From Actomonas aquatica (GTDB lineage Bacteria; Verrucomicrobiota; Verrucomicrobiia; Opitutales; Opitutaceae), in assembly GCF_019679435.2 (NCBI RefSeq), contig NZ_CP139781.1:5142001-5206000 (forward strand): a stretch of 64,000 nt of DNA. Reading direction: 5' to 3'. Of the stretch, positions 2,087 to 60,831 are shown piece after piece; position 1 is the stretch's first letter, and every line of letters begins with the position of its first letter. The position numbers and the translations under genes are program-made. Below the pieces are notes generated by a model. It was not told the origin of the DNA and did not search any database. It worked only from the letters and a program-made list of their open reading frames with translations.

Positions 2087-3256
2087 TCAGACCTTCGGGA
2101 ACTTGGTCCAGCGGGCGCCTTTTTGGGAGCTCTTCACGACGGTTTCGATGAAGAGCATGCCGGCGATGCCGTCGTCGACCGTGGGGAAGTCGTAGCCCTT
2201 CTTCGGCGGTTTGCGGCCCTTGATGGCGTCGGCAATGGCGTCGGAGGCGGCGAGGTAGACGTTGGCAAAGGCTTCGATGAATCCCTCCGGGTGAGCGAAG
2301 GGCGTGCGGGTCGCGCCTTGGGCGGCGGCACCGAGGTAACCGTTGCCGCGGCGATGCACCTGGGGCGGGGCGTCGGCGCGTTTGAAGATGAGCTCGTTGG
2401 GGTTTTCCTGATGCCACTCGAGTCCGCCCTTGGTGCCGTAGACGCGAATGTTGAGGTTGTTCTCATCGCCGTTGGAAATCTGCGAGGCGAAGAGGATGCC
2501 TTTCACGCCGTCGGAGAAACGGACGAGGCAGTTGCCGTCATCGTCGAGCGGGCGGCCCGGGATGAAGGTGGAAAGCTCGGCGCAGATCTCCTCGACCTCG
2601 AGCCCGGTGATATAGCGGGCGAGGTTGTGGGCGTGGGTGCCGATGTCGCCCATGCAGTTGGAGACGCCGGCGGTGGAGGGGTCCATGCGCCAGTTGGAGA
2701 TGGCGCCGTCGCCCTTTTCCTCGATGGCGGTGATGGCGTAACCCTGCGGGTATTCGACGACGATCTTGAGCAGCCTGCCGAGTTTGCCCTGCTGCACCCA
2801 GTCGCGGGCTTCCTTCACCATTGGGTAGCCGGTGTAGTTGTGGGTGAGGGCGAAGACCTTGCCGGTCTTTTCGATGATCTTCTTGAGGGCGCGGCCTTCT
2901 TTGACGGTGAAGCAGAGCGGCTTGTCGCAGATGACGTGGATGCCAGCTTCGAGGAAGGTTTTGGCGACCGCAAAGTGGGTGTTGTTGCGCGTGACGATGG
3001 AAACGAAGTCGATGCGTTCGTCTTCCGGCAGCGCGGCTTCGGCGGCGGCCATTTCCGCGTAGGACGCGTAGACGCGTTTCGGGTCGAGGAAGAAGTCCTG
3101 ACCGGAGAGTTTGGACTTCTTCGGGTCGGAGGAGAAGCAGCCGGCGACGAGTTCGATCTGGCCGTCGAGGTTGGCGGCCATGCGATGCACGGCGCCGATA
3201 AAGGCACCGCGGCCACCGCCGACCATGCCCATGCGGAGTTTGCGGTTAAGTTTCAT
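2087..3256 (-). CDS. Gfo/Idh/MocA family NAD(P)-dependent oxidoreductase
   Basis: The 389-residue protein has the family's two-domain layout. The N-terminal Rossmann fold carries a glycine-rich dinucleotide loop (MGMVGGGRGAFIG, residues ~9-21) and the conserved lysine motif CDKPL at ~110-114, equivalent to the usual EKP. The second domain contains GDIGTHAHNLARYITG with the catalytic-region His. Members oxidise or reduce sugars, inositols and related polyols in the cytoplasm; the exact substrate cannot be read from sequence. It is the last gene of a minus-strand operon with another oxidoreductase and a TIM-barrel isomerase-like protein. A 22-bp perfect inverted repeat lies 17 nt upstream of the ATG. 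Confidence 0.93.
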   Translation of the reverse strand: MKLNRKLRMGMVGGGRGAFIGAVHRMAANLDGQIELVAGCFSSDPKKSKLSGQDFFLDPKRVYASYAEMAAAEAALPEDERIDFVSIVTRNNTHFAVAKTFLEAGIHVICDKPLCFTVKEGRALKKIIEKTGKVFALTHNYTGYPMVKEARDWVQQGKLGRLLKIVVEYPQGYAITAIEEKGDGAISNWRMDPSTAGVSNCMGDIGTHAHNLARYITGLEVEEICAELSTFIPGRPLDDDGNCLVRFSDGVKGILFASQISNGDENNLNIRVYGTKGGLEWHQENPNELIFKRADAPPQVHRRGNGYLGAAAQGATRTPFAHPEGFIEAFANVYLAASDAIADAIKGRKPPKKGYDFPTVDDGIAGMLFIETVVKSSQKGARWTKFPKV

Positions 3257-3273: not shown

Positions 3274-3372
3274 TAACCACGGATGCACACGGATGGCTTC
3301 GCCTACCGGCTACGCTCTGCCGAGGGGCAACGCGAAACGGTAGTGGAGCGCATCCGTGTGCATCCGTGGTTA
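3274..3372. repeat. Long palindromic repeat, TTAACCACGGATG family, copy 1
   Basis: Two arms of 22 bp (3274-3295 and 3351-3372) are perfect inverted copies; each starts or ends with taaccacggatg. Between them a second, smaller inverted pair (ctaccg at 3303-3308, cggtag at 3338-3343) gives a nested structure. The element fills nearly the whole gap between two oxidoreductase genes. A relative with the same inner block GCGAAACGGTAGTG is at 60157-60255. Confidence 0.92.
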
Positions 3373-3384
3373 GATAAATCAGGT

Positions 3385-4467
3385 TCAGAGGGCGATGGGT
3401 TGGCCGGAGGCGGCGGAGGCGTAGGCGCCGTCGATGATCTTCATCAGCGAGAGGGCTTCGGCCGGGGTGTTGAGCGGGGCTTCTTCGCCGGTGAGGGTTT
3501 TGATGAAGTTGGCGGCGGAACGCTCGCGGCCCATCGTTTCGTCGGTGGCGACCTTTACGTCGCGGTTCACCTGCACGCCGTTTTCGGTGGTGTAGAGCTG
3601 GCAGGCGTCGATGGAGGTTTCATCGAGTCCGTCGACCCCGAAGAGGCGTCGCACCATGCCGCCGGCCTTGGAGCCTTGGAAAGTGCAGGAGCATTCTTCG
3701 CGCTCGTTCATCTCGGCCCAGGAGATCTGGAAGGAGAGGGACTGGCCGGTGGTGAAGGTGACAAATCCATGCGCGGCGGCTTCGACGTCGTTCACGCCCT
3801 TGGCGTTGTCGGGGATGCCCCACGGGCCCTTGAAGGCCTTGTCGTCGATGTGATCGTTGTAGGTGCGGGCGAGGATGTGCGCCGGCTCCGGGTAACCCAT
3901 GAAGTGCAGGCCGAGGTCAACCATGTGCAGCAGGTCGATGAGCGGACCGCCACCGGCGAGGGCCTTGTTGGTGAACCAGCCGCCGAAACCAGGAATGCCG
4001 GCGCGGCGAATCCACTTGGCCTGGCAGGAGTTGATGGTGCCGATGGAACCGTCGTTCACGTAACCGCGCATGGCGTAGCTTTCGGGCCGGGCGCGGTTGT
4101 TGAAGTTGAACATGAGGGTCTTGCCGGCGGACTCGGCCGCAGCCTTGAGCTCCGCCATTTCAGTGGCGTTGAGCGCGGGCGGCTTTTCGCAGAAGACGTT
4201 CTTGCCGGCCTGCAGAGCCTGGAGCGCGAGCGGAGCGTGGAACTTGTTCGGCACGATGACGGAAACACCGTCGAGTTCGGGCAGGGCGCTGAGCATCTCG
4301 GCGACGTCGCCGAAGGTTTTGTCGATGCCGTGCTTGGCGGCGGTGGCCTGGGCGGCGGCGTGATTCACGTCGGCCATGGCGACGACATCGGCCCCGGCGG
4401 AGCGGAAGCCGTTGATATGATAGGCGGCCATGCCGCCGGCGCCGATGATGGCGATTTTTTTACTCAT
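3385..4467 (-). CDS. Gfo/Idh/MocA family NAD(P)-dependent oxidoreductase
   Basis: The 360-residue protein begins with a textbook dinucleotide-binding loop, IAIIGAGGMAAYHI (residues ~5-18), and has the signature EKP lysine motif (FCEKPPAL, residues 92-99). DLLHMVDLGLHFMGYP in the second domain is the typical Asp/His region. The reaction is probably oxidation or reduction of a sugar-derived hydroxyl or keto group with NAD(P). It is the middle gene of the three-gene minus-strand group 5590-2087, separated from both neighbours by palindromic repeats rather than by tight overlaps. Its protein differs clearly from the neighbouring oxidoreductase, so this is not a recent tandem duplication. Confidence 0.94.
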   Translation of the reverse strand: MSKKIAIIGAGGMAAYHINGFRSAGADVVAMADVNHAAAQATAAKHGIDKTFGDVAEMLSALPELDGVSVIVPNKFHAPLALQALQAGKNVFCEKPPALNATEMAELKAAAESAGKTLMFNFNNRARPESYAMRGYVNDGSIGTINSCQAKWIRRAGIPGFGGWFTNKALAGGGPLIDLLHMVDLGLHFMGYPEPAHILARTYNDHIDDKAFKGPWGIPDNAKGVNDVEAAAHGFVTFTTGQSLSFQISWAEMNEREECSCTFQGSKAGGMVRRLFGVDGLDETSIDACQLYTTENGVQVNRDVKVATDETMGRERSAANFIKTLTGEEAPLNTPAEALSLMKIIDGAYASAASGQPIAL

Positions 4468-52437: not shown

Positions 52438-52470
52438 AAAAAGCGGCACCGAAATCGGTGCCGCTTTTTT
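52438..52470 (+). terminator. Bidirectional intrinsic terminator after floT
   Basis: The 12-bp stem aagcggcaccga / tcggtgccgctt has A-runs on one side and T-runs on the other, so it can stop both floT (+) and the convergent OppA-like gene (-). It lies about 20 bp after the floT stop. Confidence 0.9.
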
Positions 52471-59060: not shown

Positions 59061-60140
59061 TCAGCTCGTGATGACCTTGGCTTGAGCCTGGGCTTCGAGG
59101 CAGAGGCGGGCGGCGGTGAAGATGTGATCCTGGGTCATCGCTTTCTCGGTGCGGTGGAGGCAGTCCAGGATGAGTTCGCCGAAGAAGCGGTAGCCGATCT
59201 TGCCGGTGACGTCGAAGTGATGCTCGCCCTTCTGGTCGACGAGAAACACCTGATCCGCGACATGCGGCTCGCGGCCGACGTCGACGTATTTGCGCAACTC
59301 GATGTAGCCGTCGGTGCCGAGGATGATCATGCGGCCGTCACCCCAGGTGCGCAGGCCGTCGGGCGTGAACCAGTCGACGCGCACGTAGTTGGTAGCGCCG
59401 TTGTTGCCCACGAGGTTGGCCTCACCGAAGTCGTCGAGCTCGGGGTGATCGGGATGGTTGTAGTTGGCGATGGCGGCGTGGCTGACGGTGGCGTCGGTCG
59501 CGCCCGAGAAGGTGAGGAACTGCTCGAATTGGTGGCTGCCGATATCGCAGAGGATGCCGCCGTATTGCTCCTTCTTGAAGAACCAGTCGGGGCGGGACGG
59601 CGCGTTGAGGCGATGGGGGCCGAGGCCGAGCACCTGGATGACTCGGCCGATGGCGCCGTCTTTGATCAGGTCGGTCGCATACATGGCGCTCTCCACGTGG
59701 AGGCGTTCGCTGAAATAGACGGCGTATTTGCGTCCGGTTTCAGCCACGACCTGCTTGGCGCGTTCAAATTGGTCGAAGGCGGTGAAGGGCGTTTTGTCGG
59801 TGAAGTAGTCCTTGCCGGCGCGCATGACCTGACAGCCGAGGTCGCCGCGCAGATTGGGGATGGCGGCGGCGGAGACGAGTTGCACGGACTCATCCTCCAG
59901 CACCTCGTCGAGCGAACGGGCGACGCGGGCCTGCGGGTATTGTTTACAGTAGGCTTCGACCTTGGCGGGATCGGGATCGTAAACCCATTTGAGTTCGGCC
60001 CCGGCCTCGATGAGGCCGTTGGTCTGGCCGTAGATGTGGCCGTGATCGAGATGCACGGTGGCGAAGGTGAATTCGCCGGGTTGCACCACGGGAGAGGGTT
60101 TGCCCTTTGGGGCGTAGGTCATGCCGTCGCTGGAACTCAT
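59061..60140 (-). CDS. Gfo/Idh/MocA family oxidoreductase, atypical nucleotide loop
   Basis: The 359-residue protein fits the Gfo/Idh/MocA family overall, with the C-terminal domain block GDIGSHQFEQFLTFSGATDA and the substrate-region FFKKEQYGGILCDIG. However, the glycine-rich dinucleotide loop is replaced by FATVHLDHGHIYGQTNGLIE (~27-46), and the EKP motif reads TDKTPFTAF (~113-121). This DHGHIYG subgroup occurs in this phylum and may use a different cofactor geometry. The ATG at 60138-60140 is used. A palindromic repeat of the same family as that at 3274-3372 lies 16 nt upstream. Confidence 0.87.
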   Translation of the reverse strand: MSSSDGMTYAPKGKPSPVVQPGEFTFATVHLDHGHIYGQTNGLIEAGAELKWVYDPDPAKVEAYCKQYPQARVARSLDEVLEDESVQLVSAAAIPNLRGDLGCQVMRAGKDYFTDKTPFTAFDQFERAKQVVAETGRKYAVYFSERLHVESAMYATDLIKDGAIGRVIQVLGLGPHRLNAPSRPDWFFKKEQYGGILCDIGSHQFEQFLTFSGATDATVSHAAIANYNHPDHPELDDFGEANLVGNNGATNYVRVDWFTPDGLRTWGDGRMIILGTDGYIELRKYVDVGREPHVADQVFLVDQKGEHHFDVTGKIGYRFFGELILDCLHRTEKAMTQDHIFTAARLCLEAQAQAKVITS

Positions 60141-60156: not shown

Positions 60157-60255
60157 TAACCACGAATGGACACGAAGAACTCCGCTACCGCTTCGTTGGC
60201 AAAGGGTGCCATTGAAGCGAAACGGTAGTGAAGCCTTTCGTGTCCATTCGTGGTT
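60157..60255. repeat. Long palindromic repeat, TTAACCACGAATG family, copy 2
   Basis: Arms aaccacgaatggacacgaa (60158-60176) and its perfect inverse (60237-60255) enclose an inner region with ctaccgcttcg / agcgaaacggtag. It shares GCGAAACGGTAGTG with copy 1 at 3274-3372, in the same orientation. It lies between the oxidoreductase start and the peptide deformylase stop. Confidence 0.92.
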
Positions 60256-60261
60256 GAACAA

Positions 60262-60831
60262 CTAAGCCTGTTCGGCGGACTCGCGGGTTTGTTTGGCGAG
60301 GTCTTTGATTTCGCGGTCGATCGACTGGCGGACCTTTTTGGTCATGCGATCGATGAAGAGGGTGCCGTTGAGGTGATCGGCTTCGTGCTGGATGCAACGC
60401 GAGAAGAGGCCGTTGCAGATGAGGGTGTGGGGCACGCCGCCGGCATCCTGATAGGTGACGCGGATCTCATCGGGACGCACGACGTCGCCGTTGATGCCGG
60501 GGAAGGACAGGCAGCCCTCCTCGTAGATAGTGTCGTCGCCCTCCAGGATCTCGATCTTGGGGTTGGCGAGGCTCATCGGCATGATGAGTTCGAGGGGCGG
60601 TTTGGCGCCGTCGAGCTCCCAGTCGAAGTCGCGGTCGGCGCGAGCGAGGTCGACCACGCAAAACTGGATGGCCTTACCAATTTGTTGGGCGGCGAGGCCG
60701 ATGCCATTGGCGCCGTGCATGGTTTCAACCATGTCGCGGGCGAGCGTGGCGAGCTCGGCATCGAAGGTGGTGACCGGCGCGCCTTTGGTGCGCAGAACGG
60801 GATCGTTGTAGTGAACTATCGGGAGAACCAT
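60262..60831 (-). CDS. def: Peptide deformylase
   Basis: The 189-residue protein has the three PDF motifs: GIGLAAQQIG (43-52), EGCLS (105-109, Cys107 a metal ligand) and QHEADHLNG (148-156, with H149 and H153 as metal ligands and E150 as catalyst). It removes the formyl group from N-terminal Met of new proteins. Size and motifs are those of type I deformylases. The ATG at 60829-60831 begins the conserved MVLPIVHYNDPVLR. An unusual feature is that no fmt gene follows, although the pair is common in bacteria. Confidence 0.96.
   Translation of the reverse strand: MVLPIVHYNDPVLRTKGAPVTTFDAELATLARDMVETMHGANGIGLAAQQIGKAIQFCVVDLARADRDFDWELDGAKPPLELIMPMSLANPKIEILEGDDTIYEEGCLSFPGINGDVVRPDEIRVTYQDAGGVPHTLICNGLFSRCIQHEADHLNGTLFIDRMTKKVRQSIDREIKDLAKQTRESAEQA

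Follow-up and report, generated by a model that had tools for sequence, protein, structure and literature searches.

Judged by the letters of their arms, the two hairpins of the window (the whole analysed stretch of 64,000 nucleotides, bases 5,142,001-5,206,000 of the one-contig Actomonas aquatica genome of 6,109,182 bases) are identified as non-coding copies of an inverted-repeat-array element, whose coding copy (L076) carries the same arms. In the coding copy, the arms enclose a gene of the GxxExxY family. Palindrome, repeat type and GxxExxY clade are strongly associated in several sequence data sets, and the repeat-matched palindromes around GxxExxY genes suggest a hitherto undescribed kind of small mobile element. 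Probably, the hairpins are miniature mobile palindromes that are served by a cognate GxxExxY nuclease, for which we infer both the activity and the transposition.

The two window elements are about 99 bp long and are built from perfect inverted arms of 22 bp (element 1, 3274-3295/3351-3372) and 19 bp (element 2, 60158-60176/60237-60255) that surround a common inner block, GCGAAACGGTAGTG, in equal orientation. A sequence-only reading of the window had described them in this way and had placed them 17 nt (element 1, ORF 2087-3256(-)) and 16 nt (element 2, ORF 59061-60140(-)) upstream of the ATG of a Gfo/Idh/MocA oxidoreductase gene; letters and coordinates agree with that description, and both proteins match GFO_IDH_MocA (Table 1). 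Each element occupies the whole gap between two co-directional genes, so that the upstream stop codon (12 and 6 nt, respectively) is as near as the downstream ATG. Both take the first two ranks among the 10 close inverted repeats found by a repeat finder in the window. The motif TAACCACGRATG occurs four times when up to one mismatch is allowed (0.12 expected; 0/100 shuffles reach 4), and RNA folding of both hairpins, four strands in total, gives z-scores of -9.95 to -11.9, with none of 200 shuffles folding equally well. A separate perfect 15-bp hairpin with a 2-nt loop (AAAAAGCGGCACCGA/TCGGTGCCGCTTTTT, window positions 52438-52469) resembles a bidirectional intrinsic terminator.

Table 1. Palindromic elements of the window, their parts and the genes on either side (window positions).
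Feature	Position	Strand	Remarks
Palindromic element 1	3274..3372	.	no enclosed gene; genome place C1:5145275-5145371
Element 1 left arm	3275..3294	+	two 10-bp repeats
Element 1 right arm	3352..3371	-	left-arm repeats, inverted
Element 1 inner A-end motif GCTTCGCCTACCGGCTACGC	3296..3315	+	includes mini-stem GCC-TACC-GGC
Element 1 inner B-end motif GCTCCACTACCGTTTCGCG	3331..3349	-	
Palindromic element 2	60157..60255	.	no enclosed gene; genome place C1:5202158-5202255
Element 2 left arm	60158..60177	+	CACGAAT subtype
Element 2 right arm	60236..60255	-	
Element 2 inner B-end motif	60216..60234	-	
Gfo/Idh/MocA oxidoreductase, downstream of element 1	2087..3256	-	GFO_IDH_MocA match; context only
Second Gfo/Idh/MocA oxidoreductase, upstream of element 1	3385..4467	-	context only
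Gfo/Idh/MocA oxidoreductase, downstream of element 2	59061..60140	-	GFO_IDH_MocA match; context only
Peptide deformylase, upstream of element 2	60262..60831	-	domain match; extent from codon-usage caller; context only

Both elements belong to a large family. The arm pattern AACCACGRATGNACACGRA (up to 3 mismatches) is found at 166 places genome-wide, compared to 15 for a reversed-pattern control. Paired copies were gathered from stretches fetched around listed matches (184,806 bases of 6.11 Mb), in which at least 44 copies show both arms and 36 arm matches stay unpaired; since copies were read only around the listed matches, 44 pairs is a lower bound, and the unpaired matches include overlapping matches inside one arm as well as copies with an altered partner arm. 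The copy size lies between 90 and 129 bp in 35/44. The outer arm consists of two 10-bp repeats (AACCACGGAT GGACACGGAT and variants), and the outer ends of the family read TTTTAACCAC. A T-run lies outside the left arm in 38 of the 44 copies and an A-run outside the right arm in 32; this order is the reverse of that of an intrinsic terminator on either strand, and such a function was rejected. Inside each arm follows an A motif (GCTTCGCCTACCGGCTACGC) or a B motif (GCTCCACTACCGTTTCGCC) and subsequently a short variable centre. By a strict test of end type, 22 of the 44 copies are A+B, one is A/A, one is B/B and 20 have at least one untypable end. The mini-stem of the 42 pattern-fitting A motifs takes the form GCC-TACC-GGC in 32 and the flipped form GGC-TACC-GCC in 10, with no mixed forms. 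These forms could reflect two lineages instead of repeated compensation.

The centres were considered as hairpins of their own and rejected as such (mean z -0.30; 3/38 at p<=0.05). When the 18 centres longer than 20 nt were compared, at least ten 12-mers were shared, and those listed all came from four copies at 5.418-5.444 Mb. The 25-nt flanks of the 44 copies show no excess of direct matches that would indicate a target-site duplication, the longest averaging 4.34 compared to 4.18 in shuffles.

Several further arrangements were observed in the family. Copies and single arms are dense in a 67-kb region (G000:C1:5394513-5461718, L321-L325), within which several outer flanks (CCACTCCACCGCAG, GAGCTATGGCGGACAG) are common to different places and some centres are related. 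A box, GAGAGGCAG (up to one mismatch), lies within 45 bp outside 35/124 ends, mainly at A ends (25/60), and is met in 1.1% of random 45-mers. Three single A ends are found within about 10 kb (G000:C1:1071050, 1074355 and 1081291; L041-L043) and have extra sequence beyond the motif in common, two of them closely and the third partly, so that half elements may be copied too. The arms of four other loci (L013, L047, L048, L052) contain short inserts that resemble one another (CTTGTGCGCC...GGCGCA, in full, in part or as the complement) and form a nested small hairpin.

Three small-protein families were tested as possible partners of the palindromes. The genome holds 9 matches to Y1_Tnp, 5 to IVP (PF05635) and 3 to PF13366, and none of the 9 Y1_Tnp and 5 IVP loci has family arms. 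The three PF13366 proteins pass the curated cut-off of 35 for GxxExxY (TIGR04256) with 125.2, 137.3 and 110.9 bits. A complete GxxExxY gene lies inside a 495-bp copy with exact family arms of the T type (L076, C1:3216981-3217475), and a second one is enclosed by perfect A-type arms that are built from a different repeat, AACCACGAAACACACGAAATACACGAAA (L075). At the third (L077), a related array was read by eye on the left side only, with no inverted pair and a score of 6. The only coding copy among the 44 paired copies encodes GxxExxY. A tblastn search of the non-coding copies found no GxxExxY remnant (best other E 0.007), which gives no support to their origin as deletion derivatives of the coding copy.

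The GxxExxY protein (TIGR04256/PF13366) is predicted to take on a PD-(D/E)XK fold that is nearest to those of Cas4 and lambda-exonuclease-like nucleases. An AlphaFold2 model, calculated on an alignment of 59 sequences (56 of the 80 GTDB loci, themselves the best 80 of 533, and 3 own), reaches a pLDDT of 94.8 and a pTM of 0.87. Foldseek ranks LHK-Exo first, followed by Cas4 SSO0001, which is also the best chain in VIA-align (Z 9.8, 3.0 Å over 98 residues); the other 49 rows of VIA-align, mostly nucleases, score 7.5 to 5.6, and the tool calls such scores common. The invariant residues (G31, E34, Q55, D73, K85, Y101, L102, N114, F115) fit an E...D...(D/E)xK core. RecB/Cas4-type nucleases typically carry a QxxxY motif. 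It is contained in the consensus GQMLNYLK, with Y101 being invariant and the Q lying outside the columns at >=90% conservation. The protein resembles Cas4, lambda-exonuclease and RecB-type PD-(D/E)XK nucleases in its predicted fold and its conserved acidic-lysine core, but differs from them in being stand-alone and only about 125 residues long, with its gene inside its presumed target. A sequence search of solved structures gave no relative (best E 1.4). In the accessible text of publications mentioning GxxExxY or PF13366, no function was found for either, and no link of GxxExxY with palindromes was found in the literature searched, which covers few subscription journals. Literature matches to the repeat letters are, among those listed and by title, primer-like chance matches.

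Arms around GxxExxY genes are common far beyond this genome. A GTDB scan with the own proteins was used to collect the best 80 of 533 loci, a query that is biased toward the T clade (genes resembling that of L076) and therefore samples unevenly. By record title, these best 80 of 533 come from Verrucomicrobia, Lentisphaerae, Planctomycetes, Kiritimatiellae, Bacteroidota, several proteobacterial groups, Acidobacteria and others. By the arm motif, inverted arms lie within 300 bp on both sides of 64 of these best 80 genes (67 upstream, 72 downstream), and the other 16 are without arms on one or both sides. Without a preset motif, an inverted-repeat test gives scores of 14 or more for 33 of the best 80 of 533, compared to 0/141 same-locus control pairs. 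The set was extended to 173 loci (the best 80 of 533 from GTDB, 30 and 60 further from Opitutaceae, and 3 own), in which the inverted-repeat score is >=13 at 132, >=14 at 123 and <13 at 41. Two of 60 same-locus controls with wider windows reach 13, and none scores higher. A cross-locus control (25/160 at >=14) is inflated because the arms share a consensus, and the same-locus controls were relied on instead.

The arms are tandem arrays of 8-10-bp repeats with the core C-R-C-N-N-A-[T/G/A], usually beside a T-run. Repeat types were assigned at 121 of the 173 loci, namely those that score >=13 for inverted repeats and have two or more core repeats. Final letter and spacing combine as T with 10 bp at 59 loci, G with 8 or 9 bp at 41 and A with 9 bp at 8; the remaining 13 have other or no measurable spacing, and the best repeat runs in the opposite direction at 8 of the 121. 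On the protein tree of these 121 rows, the final letter changes 6 times and type plus spacing 17 times versus 57.2 in shuffles, on trees that have few columns and many open forks and whose cross-phylum loci nearly all belong to the T clade. One starred protein clade of 41 rows is all G. Within Opitutaceae only (79 rows), 5 type changes are counted compared to a shuffled mean of 31.1, with 0/200 as low; 16 T-clade loci of this tree (L282-L297) had been labelled T from an identity search before arm scoring, and their arms were confirmed later. Different repeat types occur together in 7 of the 14 Opitutaceae genomes with two or more labelled genes. Since the type follows the clade in one host family and types are mixed within genomes, host descent is no explanation. 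T-clade genes (>=52% identity) have a T arm before and an inverted T arm after the gene in 17/17 cases, own gene included; at one of these, L290, the upstream T arm finds its partner in a nearer arm and could be part of an adjacent palindrome. Such arms are absent at the gene in all 13 lower-identity loci, and one stray match lies more than 1 kb off. The inner motif that follows the arms is a genus-level feature of this genome's elements, and the inner A/B motifs were not found at T-clade gene loci of other genera.

The number of arms additionally goes along with the gene. Across 150 Opitutaceae genomes, arm matches range from 0 to 360, and control counts are 0 or 1. The 21 genomes without PF13366 (20 listed, and G148 taken from its absence among the rows) have at most 4 arms, compared to up to 360 in the 129 with PF13366. 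A T-clade gene (>=52% identity, near full length) is present in 16/27 arm-rich genomes (15 or more arms, any completeness) versus 1/38 arm-free genomes (Fisher p 2.7e-7), in a comparison that sets aside the 72 genomes with 1-14 arms and samples 38 of 51 arm-free genomes, the ones left out being 12 under 90% complete and G083. In the sole arm-free genome with a T-clade gene, G110, the arms read CGCAGAT, a repeat that falls outside the count pattern. Eleven of the 27 arm-rich genomes are without an intact T-clade gene; G039 has a 48% match, and G091 and G099 have partial matches.

Turnover of single elements was read from orthologous gaps in relatives of the same genus. The gap of element 1 (site 1) holds a T-type element here and in G145, G020 and G150 (only one flank aligned in the latter), with differing inner sequence; none is seen in G090, and G064, G128 and G111 hold other sequence. 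Element 2 (site 2) is present here and absent in G020 and G150, where both flanks align; the site is readable in these 2/7 relatives, because its two genes lie apart in the others. The nusB-ftsY gap holds an element here, 13 bp in G090, 45-96 bp without family arms in G111, G150, G145 and G020, and other repeats in G128, where one flank aligned. In G064 (L202), the same gap contains a 447-bp insert, in which an inverted AATCAGGAA-type array (score 17) surrounds a GxxExxY gene that is broken into two frames. As the contents of this gap differ between species, occupancy and type change at one spot. The insertion junctions are too diverged to give the exact insertion point. The mobile palindrome settling by genes that the sequence-only reading had proposed is borne out in so far as the family is dispersed, nearly all intergenic and variable in presence between congeneric species. 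Furthermore, the arms agree more within a copy than between copies, the pair being identical in 19/44 (shuffled mean 9.3, maximum 17 in 2000 shuffles).

The elements are best read as miniature palindromic mobile elements that are REPIN/RAYT-like in their working and lack two of the features by which REPIN/RAYT systems are defined. That the GxxExxY protein moves the palindrome is the best reading as well, and not a result. The protein would act as a metal-dependent PD-(D/E)XK nuclease with specificity for its own repeat type, which it would probably recognise as an extruded hairpin or in a single-stranded form. Cutting at the palindrome ends would lead to the spread of both coding and non-coding copies, and copies would persist in the gaps between genes, where they are least harmful.

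The alternative that survives best, although it is unlikely, treats the palindromes as IVS-like RNA elements. A host route (reverse transcription, recombination or replication slippage) would spread them, with GxxExxY and a four-helix-bundle protein as alternative passengers or helpers, and RNase III would cut the long transcript hairpin and make the insert tolerable between operon genes. The four-helix-bundle protein in question is IVP (PF05635). Its genes in the own genome and in Opitutaceae (L070-L073, L331-L359; 3 loci skipped for length) score >=13 in 23/31 cases compared to 0/62 controls, with 1/4 of the tested own-genome loci among those reaching 13, and their arrays use other repeats (AGTTGAG, TAAGC, AGGAGTC, AGTAGCG). 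Two unrelated small proteins thus share one architecture: genes other than that of the nuclease have the layout too, and both kinds of element may be moved by a common host route. The case for movement by the nuclease alone is weaker for it, and this is the main ground on which our confidence stays moderate. The nearest described relative of the IVP-in-array architecture that was found is the Coxiella 23S rRNA IVS, which has 428 nt, a 28-bp terminal stem and an S23p ORF and is excised by RNase III (PMC4990558). The elements share with it a palindromic insert with or without a small ORF, a size below 500 nt when coding and a long terminal stem, but they sit between protein genes and hold a different protein. 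By a simple codon-usage caller trained on 29 window ORFs, 43/44 paired copies lie between called protein genes and not in 23S rRNA, in DNA that is called 85% coding, and the sole genic overlap is the copy that encloses the GxxExxY gene. The 43 non-coding copies comprise 32 in tandem gene pairs, 5 convergent, 5 divergent and one without both neighbours called. An IVS-like route is in line with 32/42 non-coding copies with called neighbours lying between co-directional genes, and with a transcript that would form a near-perfect hairpin. The clade-specific repeats and the gene-arm dose relation, however, are easier to explain if the protein reads the arms.

It is decidedly improbable that the elements are of the REPIN type, owe their movement to a REP-associated tyrosine transposase and have captured the GxxExxY gene by accident. 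By definition, each unit of a REPIN/RAYT system has one end tagged with GTAG or CGTC (PMC3733652), and two inverted units with a spacer make up an extragenic doublet (PMC3116915). The family has this doublet and resembles REPINs in its short paired inverted ends, variable centre, intergenic position and many copies, with one related gene in the genome. The complement of the inner motifs contains GTAG, and a high enrichment in GTAG repeats is reported for Opitutus terrae (PMC3733652). One of the 9 Y1_Tnp matches (L061) is flanked by an inverted repeat of other sequence with a score of 14. In contrast to REPINs, the outer ends are TTTTAACCAC instead of GTAG or CGTC, the arms are tandem 8-10-bp repeats instead of small hairpins, and the enclosed gene encodes a predicted PD-(D/E)XK protein instead of a tyrosine transposase. 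A REP-associated transposase had been proposed as a check on the sequence-only reading, but no such transposase gene flanked by the same repeats emerged, as 0/9 Y1_Tnp loci have family arms within 1.5 kb or inner motifs. GxxExxY genes, furthermore, lie in arms across many phyla. MITEs and their parent insertion sequences also share features with the family, including inverted terminal arms, ends that coding and non-coding copies have in common, and a presence that varies between species. Unlike in MITEs, no target-site duplication was found, the coding copy holds no known transposase that would mark it as a parent, and most of the compared centres are not shared.

A regulatory role has very little probability. 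In this view, GxxExxY would bind DNA as a regulator or form half of a toxin-antitoxin pair, and regulatory selection would have spread the palindromes as its binding sites. The repeat arrays are operator-like, their type matches the protein clade, and the upstream arm often reaches or enters the matched frame of the gene. Operators are nonetheless difficult to reconcile with 5/42 copies between convergent genes, with adjoining genes of varied function (FtsY, LpxB, DciA, T2SS-F, KDPG aldolase and an ABC ATPase among the next genes; one short ORF among the 32 downstream genes has no Pfam/NCBIfam match), with a copy number of 0-360 within one family, with the turnover of site occupancy, and with the predicted nuclease fold. 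A riboswitch or other structured 5′ leader that belongs to Gfo/Idh/MocA genes only, the association that the sequence-only reading had drawn from the two window copies preceding such genes, has next to no probability and is rejected because the genome-wide tally finds Gfo/Idh/MocA as the next gene in only 3/32 tandem pairs (Pfam/NCBIfam; two of the 3 in the window), while an Rfam search gives no match at element 1 and six at element 2, all far below gathering scores and five of them microRNA families, and the site 2 element is present in this genome only, of three with a readable gap. The spacing of 16-17 nt is no fixed distance either, as the distances to the next start in tandem pairs vary from a 6-nt overlap to 167 nt.

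For miniature palindromes served by their cognate GxxExxY nuclease, a wider picture can be drawn tentatively, with a chance that falls somewhat short of even. Selfish palindromes would exist in many phyla, in which a minimal stand-alone PD-(D/E)XK nuclease with a clade-specific repeat code drives coding and non-coding copies. They would have left their footprints in environmental genomes as CACGGAT, CACGAAT and CACAGAG repeats, and IVP genes would stand for a sister class that has different repeats and may spread by way of RNA. The GxxExxY family is widespread, and its clade-matched arrays offer a testable DNA-recognition code for a predicted nuclease of about 125 residues. The PD-(D/E)XK enzyme class is not known to act alone as a transposase. 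If it is true that GxxExxY moves its palindrome, this would be a mobile element driven by that enzyme class, and GxxExxY is a candidate source of the palindromic repeats that reach 360 arm matches in one Opitutaceae genome.
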